This document shows, in pieces, positions 22,976-31,998 of a stretch of 64,000 bases of DNA. The position numbers were made by a program, and so were the translations under genes. The notes under the pieces were generated by a model. It did not search any database and was not told the DNA's origin. It saw only the letters and a program-made list of their open reading frames with translations. Position 1 is the first letter of the stretch. The number at the start of each line of letters is the position of its first letter. Source of the DNA: Cystobacter ferrugineus (GTDB taxonomy: Bacteria; Myxococcota; Myxococcia; Myxococcales; Myxococcaceae); contig NZ_MPIN01000018.1 in the NCBI RefSeq assembly GCF_001887355.1, positions 62,001 through 126,000 on the forward strand, given 5' to 3'.

Positions 22976-24277
22976 TCAGTCGCGCGGGTTGCCCTGGCGT
23001 CCCCCGGCGAGCACCGAGAGGACGACCCCCTGGTTGAGCGTGTTCGAACTCGAGGGGCTGGCCACGGGCGCGGGAGGAGCCGGAGGCTGGCGCACCGTGG
23101 GTCCCACCGGGCCGGGAATGGTCTGATCCAGCTCGTCCAGGTCCTCGGTCAGGCGGGCGAGCGTGGCCTCGGCCTCCTGCGCGTGGGCCTCGGCCTGCAC
23201 CAGCGTCAGCTTCCGGTTCTGCATGTCCTCCTTGATCTTCACGAGCGCCTGCTCGCCGATATCGAGGAAGGACCGGACGACCTCGCGGTCGAACTGGGTG
23301 CCGGCGCAGCGGTGGATCTCCGCGATGGCGTTGGCGAAGGTGGTTCCCTTGCGGTAGGGCCGATCACTCGTCATCGCGTCCAGGGTGTCCGCCACGGCGA
23401 AGATGCGCGCGCCGATGTGGATCTCCTGGCCACGGAGGTTGCGCGGGTAGCCCTGGCCGTCCCAGCGCTCCTGGTGCGACAGGACGATCTGCGCGGGCGT
23501 GGCGAGGAAGGGGATGTTCTGGATCATCTGGAAGCCGATGTCCGGATGCTTGCGCATCTCCTGCCACTCCTCGGGCGTGAGCTTGCCCGGCTTGAGCAGC
23601 ACGGCGTCCGGTACGCCAATCTTCCCGATGTCATGCAGGAGCGCGCCGCGGCCGATCTCCTCCAGCTCCGGGCCCTTGATGCCCATGCGCTCGGCGATGG
23701 CGCTCGTGTAGCGCACCACGCGCTGCGAGTGGTCCGACGTCTCGTGCTCGCGCGCGTCCAACGCCGCCACCAGGGCGAGCAGGGTGGACTGGTAGGTGTG
23801 GGCGATGTCACGCAGGGCGTTGCGCAGCTCGGTGGTACGGTCGCGCACCTTGCGCTCGAGCTTCTTCTGGTAGCGCTTGCGGGCCAGCTCGATGCGGCGC
23901 TTGGCCAGGGCGCGCTCGATGGCGCGGATGAGATCCGTCAGCTTCGGTGGCTTGAGCAGGTAGTCCACCGCGCCCCGGCGCAGGCAGTCCACCGCCGACT
24001 CGGTGTCTCCGTAGCCGGTGAGCATGATGACGGAGGTGTCCGGGTAGCGCTCGCGCAACTGCTCGAGAAGCCACAGGCCGTCCTTGCCCGGCATCTTCAT
24101 GTCGCTGATGACCAGGGGCGTCTCTTCCTGGCCGGCGAGATCCAGGGCCATTTCGGAGCCACTGGCCACAACGCAGTTGTAACCCTCCTCCCTGAGAAGG
24201 ACGGAGATGACGTCGCGGACGGAGTCGTCGTCGTCGACGATGAGGATCCGGGGAGGTACGGGAGGAATGGCTTCCAC
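22976..24277 (-). CDS. Response regulator with HD-GYP phosphodiesterase domain (RpfG-like)
   Basis: 433 residues. The receiver (about 1-125) has DDDDS, acceptor Asp in LVISDMKMPGKDG, and Lys in LLKPP. A coiled linker (ALAKRRIELARKRYQKKLERK) leads to an HD-GYP domain with HETSDHSQRV, LLHDIGKIGVPD, RKHPDIG, and HQERWDGQGYP. Such proteins hydrolyse cyclic-di-GMP. The tail after about residue 375 is a coiled coil plus a Pro-rich stretch. GTG 24277 is the likely start because it lies 9 residues before the receiver; no strong RBS is visible. No cognate kinase is adjacent. Confidence 0.88.
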   Translation of the reverse strand: MEAIPPVPPRILIVDDDDSVRDVISVLLREEGYNCVVASGSEMALDLAGQEETPLVISDMKMPGKDGLWLLEQLRERYPDTSVIMLTGYGDTESAVDCLRRGAVDYLLKPPKLTDLIRAIERALAKRRIELARKRYQKKLERKVRDRTTELRNALRDIAHTYQSTLLALVAALDAREHETSDHSQRVVRYTSAIAERMGIKGPELEEIGRGALLHDIGKIGVPDAVLLKPGKLTPEEWQEMRKHPDIGFQMIQNIPFLATPAQIVLSHQERWDGQGYPRNLRGQEIHIGARIFAVADTLDAMTSDRPYRKGTTFANAIAEIHRCAGTQFDREVVRSFLDIGEQALVKIKEDMQNRKLTLVQAEAHAQEAEATLARLTEDLDELDQTIPGPVGPTVRQPPAPPAPVASPSSSNTLNQGVVLSVLAGGRQGNPRD

Positions 24278-24630
24278 GAGGGGTGATTCTAGGAGGAACG
24301 GGCAACAGAAGGCCAACCCATCGCCGATTTTCAGCTCTCCTGGCTGTTCGCTGGCCCGGAGGTGTTCGCTCGCCGCCCCGTTTCCTCGGCAGGCGAGAAA
24401 CACTCGAAGCGGAAAGGTTTCAGGTTCATGGACGACTGGTCTTCGGCAACGAACAAGCAGGCCGTGAGAGGTGCCCGTGGAAGAGAGCAGGCAAGGGAGC
24501 GTCGCCCGGATGGGCGGGTGGATGAACCACCGCATGGCGCGCCGCGCGGCGAGGCCCTGGTGCAGGGCTTCGTCGCCAATCCAGTGCCACCGGTTGACGT
24601 CGGAAGGGCTTTCCATTAGCAAGGAGTCCC
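24278..24630. other. Gene-free gap before the his leader
   Basis: About 350 bp between the HD-GYP gene and the his leader peptide. No convincing protein with an RBS and homology was found on either strand. It presumably holds the his promoter; a TTGACG at 24594-24599 is too close to the leader start to be a comfortable -35. AAGGAG at 24621-24626 is the SD of the leader peptide. Confidence 0.5.
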
Positions 24631-24726
24631 GTGCACTTCGTGTCTGTCCACCATCATCCCGCGCATCATCATCGGTTCGGCCCCGACGGGACCGATCACC
24701 GTGTGCATGCCTGGGTCGATGTCTAG
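24631..24726 (+). CDS. hisL: Histidine operon leader peptide
   Basis: A 31-codon frame from GTG 24631 to TAG 24726, with AAGGAG ending 4 nt before the start. It encodes nine histidines, including two runs of three (VHHHPAHHHRF, residues 6-16). It is followed 34 bp later by an intrinsic terminator and then by hisG. This is the classical arrangement for ribosome-stalling attenuation: scarce charged tRNA-His stalls the ribosome on the His runs. The segment GACGGG (24685-24690) just after the His codons can pair with CCCGTC (24762-24767) in the terminator's left arm, a plausible antiterminator. Confidence 0.85.
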   Translation: MHFVSVHHHPAHHHRFGPDGTDHRVHAWVDV

Positions 24727-24760
24727 AGACAGCCCACCGCACCTGCCGCAGTGAACGAAA

Positions 24761-24788
24761 GCCCGTCCCACCCCGGACGGGCTTTTTT
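24761..24788 (+). terminator. Attenuator terminator of the his operon
   Basis: GCCCGTCC (24761-24768) and GGACGGGC (24775-24782) make a perfect 8-bp GC-rich stem with a 6-nt loop, followed immediately by six T (24783-24788). It lies between the His-rich leader peptide and hisG and points toward hisG, so it ends transcription before the structural genes unless relieved. Confidence 0.88.
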
Positions 24789-24825
24789 CGTTTCCGAGCC
24801 CGTCCCCCTCCCAGGTCTCTCTCCG

Positions 24826-25680
24826 ATGCTGAAGATCGCCCTTCCCAACAAAGGCCGCCTCTCCGACGAGGTTCGTGAACTATTCAACGATGCGGGACTC
24901 GAGGTCCGTGTCCGAGGCGAGCGGGCCCTCACCGCGTCGCTCGGTGGCGAGTTCGAGGCCATCTTCGTGCGCGCCCAGGACATCCCCGAGTTCGTCGCCG
25001 ATGGCGCGGCGGACGCGGGCGTCACCGGGTGGGATCTCGTGTGCGAGTCCGGCCGCGAGCTGGACATGCTGATGGACCTGGAGTTCGGCCGGTGCCGGCT
25101 CGTGGTGGCCGCCAGGGAGGAGAGCGGCATCCAGAAGCTGGAGGACATCCAGGATGGAGTGCGGGTGGCGTCCTCCTTCACGCGCCTCACCCAGGAGTTC
25201 TTCACCAAGCGGGGCCAGTCGGTGAAGGTGGTGCCGGTGTCGGGCGCCACGGAGATCGCCCCCCACCTGGGCATCGCGGACATCATCGTGGACCTGACGT
25301 CCACGGGCTCGACGCTGAAGATGAACGGGCTGCGCGAGGTGGGTACCATCGTCCAGTCGAGCGCACGGCTCATCGCGCGCAAGGGCCACGTGCCCGACGC
25401 GGCGGCCCAGCTCGACGAGCTGCGGCAGGCGCTGGGCTCGGTGCTCGCGGCCCGGGGCAAGCGCTACCTCATGGCCAACGTGCCGCGCCGTGTGCTGCCG
25501 AACGTGCACGAGGTGCTGCCGGGCCTCAACGGGCCCACCGTGGTGGAGGTGCAGGGCGGTGACTTCGTGGCCGTGCACGCCGTGGTGCCCGCTCGCAACA
25601 TCTACCGCACCATCAACTCCCTGAAGAACCTGGGCTGCCAGGGCATCCTCGTCACCCGCATCGAGAGGTTGATGCCATGA
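24826..25680 (+). CDS. hisG: ATP phosphoribosyltransferase (long form)
   Basis: 284 residues, the long hexameric form with a C-terminal ACT-like regulatory domain, so HisZ is not needed. The start is MLKIALPNKGRLSDEV; the PRPP loop is DLTSTGSTLKMNGLR; the C-terminal domain begins near residue 205 (GKRYLMANVPRR) and should bind histidine for feedback inhibition. It catalyses the first step, ATP + PRPP to PR-ATP. First structural gene of the operon, behind the attenuator; the stop overlaps hisD by 4 bp. Confidence 0.96.
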   Translation: MLKIALPNKGRLSDEVRELFNDAGLEVRVRGERALTASLGGEFEAIFVRAQDIPEFVADGAADAGVTGWDLVCESGRELDMLMDLEFGRCRLVVAAREESGIQKLEDIQDGVRVASSFTRLTQEFFTKRGQSVKVVPVSGATEIAPHLGIADIIVDLTSTGSTLKMNGLREVGTIVQSSARLIARKGHVPDAAAQLDELRQALGSVLAARGKRYLMANVPRRVLPNVHEVLPGLNGPTVVEVQGGDFVAVHAVVPARNIYRTINSLKNLGCQGILVTRIERLMP

Positions 25681-26978
25681 GCGCCCCTCCTCTGAAGTAC
25701 CGGGGCCGGTTGAAGGAGCTGGCCCCCGAGGCGCGCGGCCGGCTGTTGGATCGCTCGGGGGGCTCGGACGCCCGCGTCGCCCAGCGCACCGCGGAGATCA
25801 TCGCCCGGGTGCGCCGGGAGGGAGACCGCGCCCTGCGCGAGATGGCGCGCGAGTTCGACCGCGCCGAGCTGGGCTCCGTGGAGATTCCCCGCTCCGTGTG
25901 CGAGGCAGCCCTCACGTCGCTCGACCCCAAGGTGCGAGAGGCGCTCGGCCGCGCGGCGCGCAACATCGCCCGGGCACACGCGGCCCAGAAGCCCCAGGCC
26001 ATTGAAGTGGAGACCGAGCCCGGCATCCTCGTGGGCCGCCGGCCGGATCCGCTCGGACGCGTGGGCGTGTACGCACCCGGAGGCCGCGCCGTCTACCCGA
26101 GCAGCGTGCTGATGGGCGTGGTGCCGGCGAAGGTGGCCGGGGTGGGGGAGGTCATCGTCTGCTCGCCGCCCGGCCCGGATGGCGTGCCCTCGGCGGGTGT
26201 GCTGGCGGCGGCGGCGCTCGCGGGCGCGGATCGCGTCTTCGCGCTCGGAGGCGCGGGCGCGGTGGCGGCGATGGCCTATGGGACCGAGAGCGTGCCCCGG
26301 GTGGATCGCATCGTCGGACCCGGCAACGCGTACGTGGCCGCGGCCAAGCTCCAGGTGGTGGACGCGGTGGCCATCGACGCACCCGCGGGGCCCAGTGAGA
26401 TCCTCGTGGTGGCGGACGGCTCGGCGGATCCCGAGGCGGTGGCCCGGGAGATGCTGGCCCAGGCCGAGCACGACCCGGACGCCTGCTGTGTCACGGTGGC
26501 GGTGGGCGAGGCCCAGGCCGAGGCGGTGGCCATCGCGGTGGAGCGCCTGGCGGCCCGGGCCCAGCGGCGGGAGATCGTCTCGCGCTCCCTGAGCGAGCGC
26601 GGCGCGGTGCTGAGCGTGGACTCGTTGGAGGAGGCCTGGCCCTTCGTGGCGGACTTCGCTCCCGAGCACCTGCTGCTGGCCACCGAGAATCCCACCCAGG
26701 TGCTGCCCCGGGTGCGCAACGCGGGCACGGTGTTCGTGGGTCAGCATGCCTCCGTGGCCTACGGCGACTACATGACGGGCGCCAACCACGTGCTGCCCAC
26801 CGCGGGCCTCGCCCGGGCGTACTCGGGACTGAGCGTGCTCGACTTCTACCGATGGACCACGTACCAGCGCGTGACGCGCGAGGCGGCCTCCCGGCTCGCC
26901 GACGACGTGGGAACCCTGGCCGACAGCGAGGGCCTGTTCGCCCACGCCGAGGCCGCTCGTGCCTGGAGGCAATCATGA
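25677..26978 (+). CDS. hisD: Histidinol dehydrogenase
   Basis: 433 residues. It catalyses the last two steps, histidinol to histidine, NAD- and Zn-dependent. Conserved blocks include GRVGVYAPGGRAVYPSSVLM, RIVGPGNAYV, the IDAPAGPSEILVVAD signature, AQAEHDPDA with catalytic residues, FAPEHL, and GDYMTGANHVLPT. The ATG overlaps the hisG stop (ATGA), coupling translation. Length is normal for the family. Confidence 0.97.
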   Translation: MSAPPLKYRGRLKELAPEARGRLLDRSGGSDARVAQRTAEIIARVRREGDRALREMAREFDRAELGSVEIPRSVCEAALTSLDPKVREALGRAARNIARAHAAQKPQAIEVETEPGILVGRRPDPLGRVGVYAPGGRAVYPSSVLMGVVPAKVAGVGEVIVCSPPGPDGVPSAGVLAAAALAGADRVFALGGAGAVAAMAYGTESVPRVDRIVGPGNAYVAAAKLQVVDAVAIDAPAGPSEILVVADGSADPEAVAREMLAQAEHDPDACCVTVAVGEAQAEAVAIAVERLAARAQRREIVSRSLSERGAVLSVDSLEEAWPFVADFAPEHLLLATENPTQVLPRVRNAGTVFVGQHASVAYGDYMTGANHVLPTAGLARAYSGLSVLDFYRWTTYQRVTREAASRLADDVGTLADSEGLFAHAEAARAWRQS

Positions 26979-28015
26979 GCCTGCCCTCGCGTGCGTCGTA
27001 CCGGGACATTCCGCTCTACTCGCCCTCCAAGGCCCGCTGCCAGGTGGACCTGAGCGACAACACCAACCTCTTCGGCATGCCGCCCGCCGCCGAGCGCGTG
27101 CTGCGTGAGGCGGCCGTCCCCCTGGTGACGCGCTACCCCGTGGGCTACTCCCCGGACTTGCGCGACGCCGTGGCCCACTACACCGGCGTGGACACCGCCT
27201 GCGTCACCACCGGGTGCGGCTCGGACGACGTCATCGACAGCACCCTGCGCGCCTTCCTCGAGCCGGGAGATCTCATCGCCTTTCCCGCGCCCACCTTCGT
27301 GATGATGTCCTACTTCGCGAAGGTCAACGGCCTGCGCTACGCGCCGGTGACCCTGCGGCCGGACTTCGACATCGACGTGGAGGGGCTGCTGGCCACCCAG
27401 GCGAAGCTCATCTACGTGTGCTCGCCCAACAACCCCACGGGCACGGTGGCCTCGCGCGCCGCCCTGGAGCAACTGATCGAGCGCGCGCCCGGCATCGTCC
27501 TGCTCGACGAGGCCTATGCCGAGTTCGCCCGGGAGAGCCATCTGGACCTGGCGCGCCGGCCGAACGTGCTCGTGTCGCGCACGATGTCCAAGGCCTTCGG
27601 GCTGGCGTCCATGCGCGTGGGCTACGCGGTGGGCTCGCCCTCCCTGGTGGCCGAGGTGGAGAAGGCCCGCGGGCCCTACAAGGTGACGGCCCTGTCCGAG
27701 CGCATGGCCGTGGCGGCGCTGCGCGAGGACGTGGCGTGGATGCGGGCGAAGGTGGCCGAGTCCCTCGCCGTGCGCGAGCGGCTGGTGGCCGAGCTGAGCC
27801 GCATGGGGCTCACCTGCCTGCCCACCGAGGCCAACTTCGTGATGGTGAAACTGCGCGGAGCGCTCGAGGTGGCGGAGCGGATGCGCGCGCGGGACGTGAA
27901 CGTTCGGGCTTTCGCGGGCCTGCCGGCGGGCATCGGGGATGCGTTGCGCATCGGATGCGGGCCCTGGGATGTGATTCAGACGGCGCTCGATGCGCTGCGG
28001 GAGGAGCGACGGTGA
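26975..28015 (+). CDS. hisC: Histidinol-phosphate aminotransferase
   Basis: 346 residues, PLP-dependent fold type I. The NPTG motif (CSPNNPTGTV), LLDEAYAEFA, and the PLP lysine in SRTMSKAFGLASMRVGY are clear. It transaminates imidazole acetol phosphate with glutamate. ATG 26975 overlaps the hisD stop (ATGA). The substrate assignment rests on the operon position as much as on sequence. Confidence 0.95.
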   Translation: MSLPSRASYRDIPLYSPSKARCQVDLSDNTNLFGMPPAAERVLREAAVPLVTRYPVGYSPDLRDAVAHYTGVDTACVTTGCGSDDVIDSTLRAFLEPGDLIAFPAPTFVMMSYFAKVNGLRYAPVTLRPDFDIDVEGLLATQAKLIYVCSPNNPTGTVASRAALEQLIERAPGIVLLDEAYAEFARESHLDLARRPNVLVSRTMSKAFGLASMRVGYAVGSPSLVAEVEKARGPYKVTALSERMAVAALREDVAWMRAKVAESLAVRERLVAELSRMGLTCLPTEANFVMVKLRGALEVAERMRARDVNVRAFAGLPAGIGDALRIGCGPWDVIQTALDALREERR

Positions 28016-28605
28016 GAGTGACCCTGTTCGACTATGGAGCCGGCAACCTGCACTCCCTCGCCAAGGCGCTCGCGCTGGCGCCGGGAGTCAAGGTGCACGT
28101 GGAGGAGGATCCCCTGCGCGCCCTGGACACGGATCTGCTCGTGCTGCCCGGGGTGGGAGCGTTCGGCGCCGCGGTGGCGCGCCTGGCCCCGGGCGCCGAG
28201 AAGATGCGGCGCGCGTTGGATGACGGCCTGCCGTGCCTGGGCATCTGCCTGGGCATGCAACTGCTCTTCGAGGGCAGCGACGAGGGCGAGGGTCAGGGCC
28301 TGGGCTTCTTCCGGGGCCGGGTGACGCGGCTGACGTCCAAGCACGTGCCTCACATCGGGTGGAACTCGGTGGAGGAGGACACCGCGCTGCGCGACGAGAA
28401 GCCGGGAACCGTCTACTACGCGCACAGCTTCGTCTGCCGTGCCCAGGAGCCCGACGTGGTGGTGGGCTGGACGACGCACGAGGGGGATCGCTTCCCGGCC
28501 TCGGTGCGGCGCGGCAAGGTGCTCGGCGTGCAGTTCCATCCGGAGAAGAGCTCGGCCGCGGGTGTGCGCTTCGTGCACGCCTTCCTCGAGGAGGTGGGCT
28601 CATGA
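28012..28605 (+). CDS. hisH: Imidazole glycerol phosphate synthase, glutaminase subunit
   Basis: 197 residues, class I glutamine amidotransferase. The oxyanion/entry motif PGVGAFG, the nucleophile Cys in CLGICLGMQLLFEGS, and the His-x-Glu dyad in VQFHPEKSS are present. It supplies ammonia to HisF. Start is GTG 28012, overlapping the hisC stop (GTGA). Confidence 0.96.
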   Translation: MRVTLFDYGAGNLHSLAKALALAPGVKVHVEEDPLRALDTDLLVLPGVGAFGAAVARLAPGAEKMRRALDDGLPCLGICLGMQLLFEGSDEGEGQGLGFFRGRVTRLTSKHVPHIGWNSVEEDTALRDEKPGTVYYAHSFVCRAQEPDVVVGWTTHEGDRFPASVRRGKVLGVQFHPEKSSAAGVRFVHAFLEEVGS

Positions 28606-29315
28606 TCGCCATTCCCGCCATCGACCTGCGCGAGGGCGCGTGCGTGCAACTCGTGGGCGGCTCCTATGCCGACGAGCGCGTGCGGGTGAAGGATCCCCTG
28701 GAGGCCCTCAAGCGCTGGCGCGCGCACGGCTTCAAGCACTTCCATGTGGTGGACCTGGACGCCGCCCTGGGCAAGGGTTCCAACGAGGACGCCATCCGCG
28801 CGCTCCTCACGCACGAGCCGGGCCTCACCTTCTCGGTGGGCGGCGGCGTACGCAGCACCGTCAAGGTGGAGTCGTTGCTCATGCTGGGCGCCACCTCCGT
28901 GGTGGTGGGCACGCGGGCCATCGAGGACGCGGAGTGGCTGCGCGAGGTGGCCGAGCGCTTTCCGGGCCAGATCGTGGTCGCCGCGGACGTGAAGGGCCGC
29001 GAGGTGGTGACGCGCGGATGGACGGCCAGCAGCTCGCGCGACATCGTCAGCGTGCTGGAGTCGCTGGAGCCCCTGCCCCTGGCGGGCCTGCTCGTCACGG
29101 CCGTGCACAAGGAAGGGCAGATGGAGGGGGTGGACCTGCCGCTGATGGAGACGGTGGTGCGCACGAGCCGCCATCCGCTGTCCGCCTCGGGAGGCGTGAC
29201 GACGCTGGAGGACCTGCGGGCGCTCGGGGGCGTGGGGGCCAGCGGGGCCGTCATCGGCATGGCGTTGTACACGGGCAGATTGGACGCGGCCGAAGTGGCC
29301 CGGGAGTTCGCATGA
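28602..29315 (+). CDS. hisA: ProFAR isomerase
   Basis: 237 residues, a (beta/alpha)8 barrel. The catalytic first Asp is in IPAIDLREGACVQLVGG, the second acid in VVAADVKG, and phosphate-binding glycines in SVGGGVRS and SASGGVTT. It catalyses the Amadori rearrangement of ProFAR to PRFAR. ATG 28602 overlaps the hisH stop (ATGA). Confidence 0.96.
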   Translation: MIAIPAIDLREGACVQLVGGSYADERVRVKDPLEALKRWRAHGFKHFHVVDLDAALGKGSNEDAIRALLTHEPGLTFSVGGGVRSTVKVESLLMLGATSVVVGTRAIEDAEWLREVAERFPGQIVVAADVKGREVVTRGWTASSSRDIVSVLESLEPLPLAGLLVTAVHKEGQMEGVDLPLMETVVRTSRHPLSASGGVTTLEDLRALGGVGASGAVIGMALYTGRLDAAEVAREFA

Positions 29316-29848
29316 CAACCATCGTTCGGGAAACGAAGGAAACGAAGGTCACGGTGCAGATCGCCCTGGGCAAGGGCATCGCCCAGGTGGACACCGGCCA
29401 GCCCTTCTTCGATCACATGCTCGGCACCTTCGCGCGCTACGCGGGGTTGGACCTCACGCTGCACGCCCGAGGAGATCTGCGCCACCACCTCATGGAGGAC
29501 GTGGCCATCACCCTGGGCACCGCCGTGCAGAAGGTCGTCCCCGCCACGGCCGCGCGCTACGGCGAGCGCACCGTGCCCATGGATGACGCGCTCGTGCAGG
29601 CGTGCATCGACGTGGGCGGGCGCTTCTATTACCGCGGCCCCCTGCGCAACAAACTCTACGAGCACGTGATGCGCTCGTTCTGCGAGCACGCCCGGGTGAC
29701 GCTGCACCTGCGGATCCTCCGCGGCAAGGACAGCCACCACGTGACGGAGGCCGCCTTCAAGGCGCTCGGCATGGCGCTGCGCGATGCGATGGTGGACTCG
29801 GGTGTGGTGTTCAGCACGAAGGGCGCCGTCGCCCTGGAGGTGAAGTGA
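29312..29848 (+). CDS. hisB: Imidazoleglycerol-phosphate dehydratase (monofunctional)
   Basis: 178 residues, dehydratase only, without the N-terminal phosphatase found in enterobacterial HisB; the phosphatase step is supplied by hisN downstream. Metal-binding motifs are FFDHMLGTFARY, RHHLMEDVAITLG and DSHHVTEAAFKALG. The first pair reads DLRHHLMEDV, slightly different from the common D-x-H-H-T-x-E-D. ATG 29312 overlaps the hisA stop. Confidence 0.95.
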   Translation: MTTIVRETKETKVTVQIALGKGIAQVDTGQPFFDHMLGTFARYAGLDLTLHARGDLRHHLMEDVAITLGTAVQKVVPATAARYGERTVPMDDALVQACIDVGGRFYYRGPLRNKLYEHVMRSFCEHARVTLHLRILRGKDSHHVTEAAFKALGMALRDAMVDSGVVFSTKGAVALEVK

Positions 29849-29849
29849 G

Positions 29850-30608
29850 ATGCTCACGCGACGACTGATCGTCTGTCTGGATGTGAAGGGCGGCCGCGTG
29901 GTCAAGGGTGTCCAGTTCGAGGGCCTGCGCGACGTGGGAGATCCCGTGGAGCTCGCCCTGCGCTACGAGGAGGCGGGCGCCGACGAGGTGACCTTCCTCG
30001 ACATCTCCGCGACCCAGGAGGAGCGCGGCACGCTGTGGGAGCTGGTGCGGCGCACCGCCGAACGGCTGTTCATCCCGCTCACGGTGGGCGGTGGCGTGCG
30101 CACGGCGGACGACGTGGGCCGGGCCCTGCGGGCGGGCGCGGACAAGGTGAGCATCAACTCGGCGGCGGTGGCCCGTCCCGAGGTGCTCACCGAGTGCGCC
30201 GAGCGCTTCGGGGCCCAGTGCGTGGTGGCGAGCATCGACGCCAAGCGCGATGGCGCGGGCTGGCGCGTGTACACCCATGGCGGCAAGAAGCCCACGGACC
30301 TGGAGGCCATCGCCTGGGCGCGCGAGTGTGTGAAACGCGGCGCGGGGGAGATCCTGCTCACGAGCATCGATCGGGACGGCGCCCGTTCGGGGTATGACCT
30401 GGAGCTGACGCGGGCCGTCGCCGAGGCGGTGGCGGTGCCCGTCATCGCCTCGGGAGGCGCGGGCAACGCGGAGCATGTCCGGGCCGCGCTGAAGGAGGGT
30501 GGGGCGGATGCGGCGCTGGTGGCGGGCATCCTCCACGACGGCGTCACCACGGTGGGAGCCATGAAGACGCTGCTGCGAGGCAGCGGTCTGGAGATCAGGA
30601 GCCATTGA
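29850..30608 (+). CDS. hisF: Imidazole glycerol phosphate synthase, cyclase subunit
   Basis: 252 residues, a (beta/alpha)8 barrel starting MLTRRLIVCLDVKGGRVVKG, with catalytic Asp11 in CLDVKGGR and a late Asp in LLTSIDRDGARSGYD. Phosphate-binding glycines lie in VGGGVRT and ASGGAG. It makes IGP and AICAR with HisH. ATG 29850 has the end of hisB (GGAGGTGAAG) as its ribosome binding site. Confidence 0.96.
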   Translation: MLTRRLIVCLDVKGGRVVKGVQFEGLRDVGDPVELALRYEEAGADEVTFLDISATQEERGTLWELVRRTAERLFIPLTVGGGVRTADDVGRALRAGADKVSINSAAVARPEVLTECAERFGAQCVVASIDAKRDGAGWRVYTHGGKKPTDLEAIAWARECVKRGAGEILLTSIDRDGARSGYDLELTRAVAEAVAVPVIASGGAGNAEHVRAALKEGGADAALVAGILHDGVTTVGAMKTLLRGSGLEIRSH

Positions 30609-30610
30609 GC

Positions 30611-31384
30611 ATGGATGCGCGATCGTTGATGCAGGCGGCGGAGGAAGTGGCTCGCAAGTCGGGCGACGTGGCACTGGGCTTCTTCCGCCAGGGCGTCACG
30701 GTGGACACCAAAGGAGACGGCACACCGGTGACGGTAGCGGACCGGACGGCCGAGAAGACGGCGCGCGAGTGGATTGAATCGCACTTCCCCGAGGACGGTA
30801 TCCTCGGGGAGGAGTTCGGTGAGACGCGGCCCGGAGCGAAGCGCCGGTGGATCCTGGATCCCATCGATGGCACCAAGACGTTCATCCGCGGGGTGCCGTT
30901 GTGGGGCACGCTGGTGGCGGTGACCGAGGGGGAGACGATTCTCGCGGGCGCGGCGTACTTCCCGCCGGTGGGGGAGATGCTGGTGGCGGCGCCGGGGCAG
31001 GGGTGCTGGTGGAATGGAAAGCGGACGAAGGTGTCGGCCGAGGCGGATCTGTCGCGCGCCCTGGTGCTGACCACCGACGAGCGCTTCCTGACGTATCCCC
31101 AGCGCGGGGCGGCATGGCGAGGCCTGGCGGCCAAGGCGTCCGTCTCCCGGACCTGGGGCGATTGCTACGGCTACCTGATGCTGGCCACCGGCCGGGCCGA
31201 GGTGATGGTGGACGAGCTGATGTCCCCCTGGGACGCGGCCGCGCTGCAGCCCATCATCGAGGAGGCGGGCGGCGTCTTCACGGACTGGACGGGCAAGCGC
31301 ACGGCGTTCGGCGGCAACTGCATCGCCACCAACGGGGTGCTCGCGGAGCAGGTGCGCGAGCTGCTCGGGGCGAAGGGGACGTGA
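30611..31384 (+). CDS. hisN: Histidinol-phosphatase, inositol-monophosphatase type
   Basis: 257 residues with the Mg-dependent phosphatase motifs of the IMPase family: [24 protein letters not shown], and the late [16 protein letters not shown]. Assignment to histidinol phosphate rests on its place in the his operon and the monofunctional HisB. ATG 30611 is 2 bp after the hisF stop; a TTG at 30605 overlapping that stop is an alternative. Confidence 0.9.
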
Positions 31385-31998
31385 TGTTGGACCTGTCGAA
31401 GCTGGATTTCACCAAGGGCAACGGGCTGGTGACGGTGGTGACTCAGGACGCTCACACGGGCGACCTGCTCATGGTCGCGCACGCGGACCGTGAGGCGCTC
31501 GAGAAGACGATCGAGACGGGCGAGATGTACTACCGCTCGCGCTCGCGGGGCCTGTGGCACAAGGGCGGCACGAGCGGCAACGTGCAGCGCGTGGTGTCCC
31601 TCACGGCCGACTGCGACGCGGACGCGGTGCTCGCCCGGGTGGAGAAGGCGGGTCCGGCCTGTCACACCGGGGCGGAGACGTGCTTCGACATCGGTCCGGT
31701 GGATGCGCTCGTGGCGTTGGACAAGACCATCGCCGAGCGCGCCAGGAAGGCCCCGGAGCCCGGCGAGAAGCCGAGCTACACGCGGCGGCTCCTGGACGAT
31801 CGCAACCTGCGCCTGAAGAAGATCGGCGAGGAAGCGGCGGAGCTGGTGACGGCCTGCGCCGATGGCGACAAGGAGCGCGCGGTCGAGGAAGCCGCCGATG
31901 TCCTCTACCATGTGCTCGTGGCGGTGCGGCCGCTGGGCGTGACGCTGGAGGACGTGAAGGCGGTGCTCGCGCGCCGCGCCAGCAAGCCGGCGAAGTGA
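31384..31998 (+). CDS. hisI: Bifunctional PR-AMP cyclohydrolase / PR-ATP pyrophosphatase
   Basis: 204 residues (HisIE fusion). The N-terminal cyclohydrolase (1-120) has [14 protein letters not shown] and the zinc/metal motif [11 protein letters not shown], then CHTGAETCF. The C-terminal pyrophosphohydrolase (about 130-200) is all-helical with [13 protein letters not shown] and [12 protein letters not shown]. It does the second and third steps. The ATG overlaps the hisN stop by one base. Last gene of the operon; the next gene is convergent and 12 bp away. Confidence 0.95.

Follow-up and report, generated by a model that had tools for sequence, protein, structure and literature searches.

Attenuation of histidine operons is a textbook mechanism, and the leader frame of the enteric hisL system is translated from a Shine-Dalgarno site inside a 5′ untranslated region. 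Attenuators of hisG have been reported for Gammaproteobacteria (PMC4833913) and for some Gram-positive bacteria (PMC9413887). The Gram-positive His attenuators, which comprise leaders of the Bacillus cereus group, Erysipelotrichales and Eubacteriales (PMC9413887) as well as the hisS/hisZ leaders of bacilli (PMC2965389), were predicted by comparative genomics. Leaderless mRNAs are known from attenuators that respond to other amino acids. The 5′ end of the leader-peptide mRNA of Sinorhizobium meliloti trpL (rnTrpL) is the start codon, which is followed by an attenuator (PMC7298713), and for the ilvBNC attenuator of Corynebacterium glutamicum both a leaderless leader mRNA and an anti-antiterminator hairpin have been discussed (PMC11857589). 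The literature that we searched contained no hisG attenuator for Myxococcota or Gemmatimonadota; its coverage was partial and an earlier prediction may exist.

The locus described here is situated in a stretch of 64,000 nucleotides from Cystobacter ferrugineus, called the window throughout. Inspection of the letters of this DNA had led to the original prediction of a histidine leader peptide and a terminator in front of hisG. Our comparative analysis indicates that the region very probably controls the his operon by ribosome-mediated transcription attenuation, and that its leader-peptide mRNA is probably leaderless. It comprises the following elements:

24594..24599, + strand: -35 element TTGACG of the predicted leader promoter (conserved promoter layout)
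24617..24622, + strand: -10 element TAGCAA, 17 nt past the -35 element (conserved promoter layout)
24621..24626, + strand: AAGGAG, probably incidental (overlaps the -10 element, upstream of the predicted start site)
24631..24726, + strand: frame of the His-rich leader peptide with GTG start (31 codons, nine of them His; evolves like a coding sequence)
24649..24672, + strand: putative regulatory His codons, HHH-PA-HHH (block kept in relatives as HHHHAHH(H))
24673..24694, + strand: predicted anti-antiterminator hairpin CGGTTCGGCCCC-GAC-GGGACCG (box locally paired in the ribosome-free fold)
24685..24690, + strand: predicted antiterminator 5′ arm GACGGG (complements CCCGTC of the terminator 5′ arm)
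24757..24788, + strand: intrinsic terminator (attenuator) GAAAGCCCGTCC-CACCCC-GGACGGGCTTTTTT (terminator scan; covariation)

Features shared with hisL (RF00514; see PMC1183508 for his of S. typhimurium) are the short frame with a run of His codons, the terminator before hisG and an antiterminator whose formation is predicted to depend on the position of the ribosome. Unlike hisL, the locus is predicted to start without a 5′ leader; one box hairpin stands in for the A:B, C:D series, the peptide is longer and the antiterminator resides inside the frame. By scanning positions 24300-25000 with cmscan (E up to 10), neither the Rfam His leader RF00514 nor a T-box model was matched. The best Rfam matches (Thr leader, rnk leader and ar14) scored far below their gathering thresholds and mainly reflected the terminator. 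The enteric hisL logic initially proposed for this site is thus appropriate as an analogy, but not as family membership, since RF00514 was unmatched at E = 10. A leader peptide, a terminator and an alternative antiterminator are also common to the Gram-positive leaders (PMC9413887, PMC2965389); however, the phyla differ, and the likeness is one of layout. With S. meliloti trpL the locus would share the coincidence of 5′ end and start codon, but it concerns His instead of Trp and another operon, and its 5′ end was predicted whereas that of trpL is reported on experimental grounds. The C. glutamicum ilvBNC attenuator, similar in the leaderless mRNA and the additional hairpin discussed for it, belongs to branched-chain amino acids and differs in sequence and phylum. 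As far as the sequences tell, the mechanism would be of a known kind, and what appears to be new is its leaderless design, together with the family of sequences and their distribution across phyla.

Downstream of the leader, all genes expected for the complete his operon that had been claimed could be assigned:

24826..25680, + strand: hisG, ATP phosphoribosyltransferase, first structural gene, ATG at 24826 (TIGR00070; PF01634)
25677..26978, + strand: hisD (TIGR00069)
26975..28015, + strand: hisC (TIGR01141 as best match, slightly under the cut-off)
28009..28605, + strand, start approximate: hisH (TIGR01855)
28602..29315, + strand: hisA (TIGR00007 as best match, slightly under the cut-off)
29315..29848, + strand: hisB, imidazoleglycerol-phosphate dehydratase (best matches PRK00951, under the cut-off)
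29850..30608, + strand: hisF (TIGR00735)
30605..31384, + strand: hisN, histidinol-phosphatase (TIGR02067)
31381..31998, + strand: hisIE (NF002747)

Despite their scores below the cut-offs, the identities of hisC, hisA and hisB are unambiguous by gene order and family.

The leader frame extends on the + strand from the GTG at 24631 to the TAG at 24726 and encodes the peptide MHFVSVHHHPAHHHRFGPDGTDHRVHAWVDV. Its 31 codons include nine His codons with triplets at 24649-24657 and 24664-24672, confirming the counts and the two triplets read from the letters. The rate at which such frames arise by chance was gauged on the 64 kb window and by a model search of the whole genome. Among the 359 frames of 12-60 codons in the window, the leader frame is the only one with more than three His in ten codons, of which it holds six, and the covariance-model search of the whole genome of the species yielded one strong copy of the leader. 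Related leaders of the family follow the consensus [V/M]..S..HHHHAHHRxGPDGTxxRAHAWVxx and are succeeded by the same terminator. In these relatives, 21 of 23 insertions or deletions inside the leader frame had a length that is a multiple of three, versus 53 of 197 beyond the stop codon. Variability within the His block amounted to 0.017 at first and 0.261 at third codon positions, and synonymous exchanges of CAT and CAC were found among the leaders. Judged by these substitutions and length changes, the leader frame evolves as a coding sequence. Downstream of the His block the second codon position is more variable than the third, indicating that selection there does not act purely on the peptide. 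The codon choice itself is conspicuous, as CAT makes up 75% of the His codons in leaders of the Myxococcaceae (414/552) versus 4% in their hisG genes (4/104). This preference, which is seen at 24649-24672 and in the relatives, may reflect a rare-codon or an RNA-folding constraint; a codon bias affecting sensitivity has already been documented for attenuation leaders (PMC1183508).

An intrinsic terminator lies between the leader frame and hisG. Its core GCCCGTCC-CACCCC-GGACGGGC-TTTTTT begins 34 nt beyond the leader stop codon, so that the distance, the 8-bp stem and the six T of the original prediction could be confirmed; including the flanking A/T pairs, the stem comprises 12 bp (24757-24786). 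A terminator scan of 700 bp disclosed three sites versus 0.4 in shuffled sequences, and the site on the + strand was the strongest by far. Since the gene upstream, a response-regulator/HD domain frame ending at 22976, is located on the minus strand, this terminator has no other evident client. It is conserved and covaries: of 38 sequences from the family, 20 have AU and 17 have GC at one base pair, and across phyla 46 double-change cells were counted, a value reached by none of 500 shuffles. Directly behind the T-run (24789-24795) the sequence CGTTTC is strongly conserved in Myxococcaceae, even in three leaders (L016, L068, L080) whose terminator stem differs.

Among the 67 tabulated leaders, 64 combine the box GACGGG with a perfectly complementary sequence further downstream. 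In genus g7 the box reads GTCGGG and its partner CCCGAC, which represents an isolated compensatory change. Covariation of the antiterminator was sought as well and proved uninformative, because its core is nearly invariant. Similarly, a comparison of the duplex energy between the box and the downstream region with that of shuffled sequences was not significant for most leaders, since GC-rich shuffles pair well too.

To follow the pairing in dependence on translation, the leader was folded up to the terminator loop at 30 °C with the footprint of the ribosome masked. When the A site occupied the tandem His codons of the window leader, the probability of GACGGG pairing with CCCGTC was 0.93-1.00. 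It fell to 0.22 one codon past the last tandem His codon and to 0 further on, and was 0 without a ribosome and 0.01 with a ribosome at the stop codon. Thus, the pairing that had been suspected from the letters was borne out by folding, provided that a ribosome was placed no further along than the His codons. Across 66 leaders of the family, the mean antiterminator probability was 0.93 at the His codons, 0.09 without a ribosome and 0.20 at the stop codon; 63 of them switched relative to the ribosome-free state and 57 relative to the stop codon, and in leaders of genus g7 the modelled switch stayed on at the stop codon. Ribosomes shield approximately 12 nt past the codon being read (PMC4833913), and 12 nt past the last tandem His codon (24670-24672) is position 24684, one base before GACGGG. 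As a control, the window leader was recoded synonymously, leaving peptide and terminator unchanged. The switch index, 0.86 for the natural sequence, averaged 0.15 over the recodings, three of 150 of which performed as well as the original. Four relatives gave a similar outcome, the weakest being L060 with 13 of 150. The competition by a GACGGG antiterminator, for which folding had been recommended as a check, hence appears in our models as a ribosome-dependent switch that is lost on synonymous recoding; according to these computations (masked folding and recoding), the antiterminator is exclusive with the terminator and dependent on the ribosome position.

We also studied the distribution of the leader. 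HisG was found in 73 of the 96 Myxococcaceae genomes sampled, and in 71 of these 73 the covariance model R1 gave a single strong match just upstream of hisG, with His codons and terminator kept. The conservation in other myxobacterial hisG leaders that the first reading had called for is therefore given. Carriers include Archangium violaceum, Hyalangium versicolor, Myxococcus xanthus, Pyxidicoccus and Corallococcus. The two exceptions, G021 (L012) and G022 (L020), lack the leader and possess a distant HisG (33-35% identity), suggesting replacement or separate acquisition of hisG. R1 matches of nearly that strength did not occur in other families of the phylum sample, and the region was not contained in any of the phage records. 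Further matches, located in other families or as second sites of Myxococcus genomes, were inspected individually; they had no His leader and were mostly ordinary terminators. As a side observation, 23 of the 96 family genomes, several of them at least 97% complete, had no HisG match and might belong to histidine auxotrophs.

The nearest HisG proteins outside Myxococcaceae were those of Gemmatimonadota and Candidatus Eisenbacteria (64-72% identity), whereas HisG from other families within the order showed 34-38% identity. Together with the two leader-less family members, these span 32-38%, and the distant HisG of other Myxococcota comes without the leader. Nearly all of the loci outside the family exhibited the layout TTGAC-N17-TA, 5-10 nt, ATG, HHHAHHGHGPTGRG..., followed by GGCCCGTCC..GGACGGGCC-T, and in 49 of 51 hisD was located directly 3′ of hisG. 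In these leaders GACGGG is read as CCG ACG GGT (PTG), while Myxococcaceae read it as CCC GAC GGG (PDG). The box has been kept despite the other reading frame, which argues that it is the RNA that is conserved. The simple two-state fold surpassed both controls in just 10 of 48 leaders outside Myxococcaceae, and with this less clear-cut fold the switch is less well supported there. The loci had been selected by HisG similarity; hence an unbiased sample of genomes was added and searched with a cross-phylum model, R2, taking E <= 1e-5 as a strong match. Of 101 evenly drawn Gemmatimonadota genomes, 83 contained HisG and 37, about a third of the sample, a strong R2 match; each of the 37 had a match just upstream of hisG. 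In the Eisenbacteria phylum, strong matches were obtained for seven of 47 genomes. The only second strong match was detected in the Gemmatimonadota genome G291, approximately 9 kb away and directly before hisC-hisH. The his operon of G291 is split, with a leader in front of each part. The two leaders on its contig C210 (L268 before hisG-hisD and L269 before hisC-hisH) are near-identical, as if the attenuator had been duplicated along with the detached half of the operon.

In a HisG tree, the leader-bearing sequences of all phyla were separated from the leader-less Myxococcota by a branch with a support of 97. The closest HisG homologues carry the attenuator and the other Myxococcota carry a distant HisG without it, for which reason operon and attenuator probably moved between phyla as a unit. 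We consider it likely that one lineage of the his operon took an uncatalogued family of leaderless His attenuators along as it spread between Gemmatimonadota, Candidatus Eisenbacteria and Myxococcaceae. Vertical descent, by which Myxococcaceae and Gemmatimonadota would have kept an ancient form of HisG that was lost elsewhere, is an unlikely explanation, though one to be taken seriously. Many deep branches are open inside the leader-bearing clade, which is in keeping with it and allows more than one direction and number of transfers. On the other hand, vertical descent would need many independent losses, given the well-supported branch, and it fits poorly with a HisG that is so much closer across phyla than to families of the same order and to the two leader-less members of the family. 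Two metagenome-assembled genomes named Planctomycetota (L211 and L190) have a HisG and a leader nesting in Myxococcaceae and Gemmatimonadota, respectively; they may be mislabelled bins or further transfers.

The start of the leader mRNA was predicted from its promoter. Upstream regions were aligned on the leader start codon, and the geometry of the -35 and -10 elements placed the transcription start of the window at approximately 24629-24631, at the GTG or at most 2 nt off. The same arrangement, TTGA[CT]-N17/18-TA with the -10 hexamer 6-9 nt before the start codon, was present in 66 of 70 family leaders, and its layout recurred in 43 of the 48 leaders from other groups than Myxococcaceae. Shine-Dalgarno-like 4-mers were rare, occurring in four of 67 distinct upstream regions of the family and in 4/48 outside. 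Given a conserved promoter that ends some 7 nt ahead of the start codon and relatives lacking Shine-Dalgarno motifs, a leaderless mRNA is probable. The AAGGAG 4 nt before the GTG, noted in the first reading, does exist, but probably does not serve in ribosome binding: it overlaps the -10 element and is not conserved, same-genus relatives having GCAAGGTG and GCTAGTTC at this position. With a transcript predicted to begin at the start codon, AAGGAG would be missing from the RNA and so is unlikely to be used. An attenuator with an ordinary 5′ untranslated region, transcribed from further upstream and translated from AAGGAG as a genuine Shine-Dalgarno sequence, would agree with the identical letters in G002 of the same genus; the nearly fixed distance between promoter and start codon and the rarity of similar 4-mers make it improbable.

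Explanations that dispense with sensing by a ribosome fare worse. A gene for a small functional His-rich (e.g., metal-binding) protein followed by a constitutive terminator, with no His sensing, is conceivable: peptides rich in His are able to bind metals, and Myxococcaceae conserve the C-terminal part GPDGT..HAHAWV. Such a protein does not account for the linkage of the element to hisG, and to hisC in the split operon, nor for a box lying in different reading frames in different phyla. It is also at odds with a modelled switch that responds to the ribosome position precisely at the His codons and is lost by recodings leaving the peptide the same, and we regard it as very unlikely. Elsewhere in bacteria, his genes are under the control of T-boxes and of the HisR repressor (PMC9413887). 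Another sensor in the leader, whether a T-box reading His-tRNA, a riboswitch or a protein controlling termination, nevertheless seems hardly credible here: the region is without a T-box or riboswitch match at E up to 10, and what is conserved is a translated frame with an overlapping antiterminator.

The ribosome attenuation originally proposed is, on the other hand, supported by its conservation in the family, the coding-type frame, the covarying terminator, the switch with its recoding control and the hisC leader copy of G291. Under a ribosome-mediated attenuator with a leaderless leader mRNA, transcription would begin at or beside the GTG, and ribosomes would enter at the 5′ end, independently of any Shine-Dalgarno sequence. 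When charged His-tRNA is plentiful, the ribosome would pass the His codons and GACGGG would refold in its own hairpin (24673-24694); with the box sequestered, our computations predict a free terminator arm and a stop of transcription at 24788. A ribosome stalled at the His codons would mask with its leading edge the 5′ side of the hairpin up to just before GACGGG. The freed box would then pair with CCCGTC and block the terminator, and hisGDCHABFN-IE would be transcribed. This cis element would belong to a family common to Gemmatimonadota and Candidatus Eisenbacteria, travelling with one HisG lineage.

The data point to His attenuation as a consistent property of the his operon of Myxococcaceae, probably in a leaderless form that Rfam lacks. 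With Myxococcus xanthus among the carriers, the mechanism is testable in a tractable model organism. If the model is true, transcription and translation of the sensor begin at the same nucleotide, which bears on how a leaderless mRNA, without Shine-Dalgarno recruitment, supports the tight coupling of ribosome and polymerase required for attenuation. The cis-regulatory RNA was probably inherited across phyla together with its operon; if so, a transferred cis regulator would have stayed functional, needing just ribosome, polymerase and His-tRNA.
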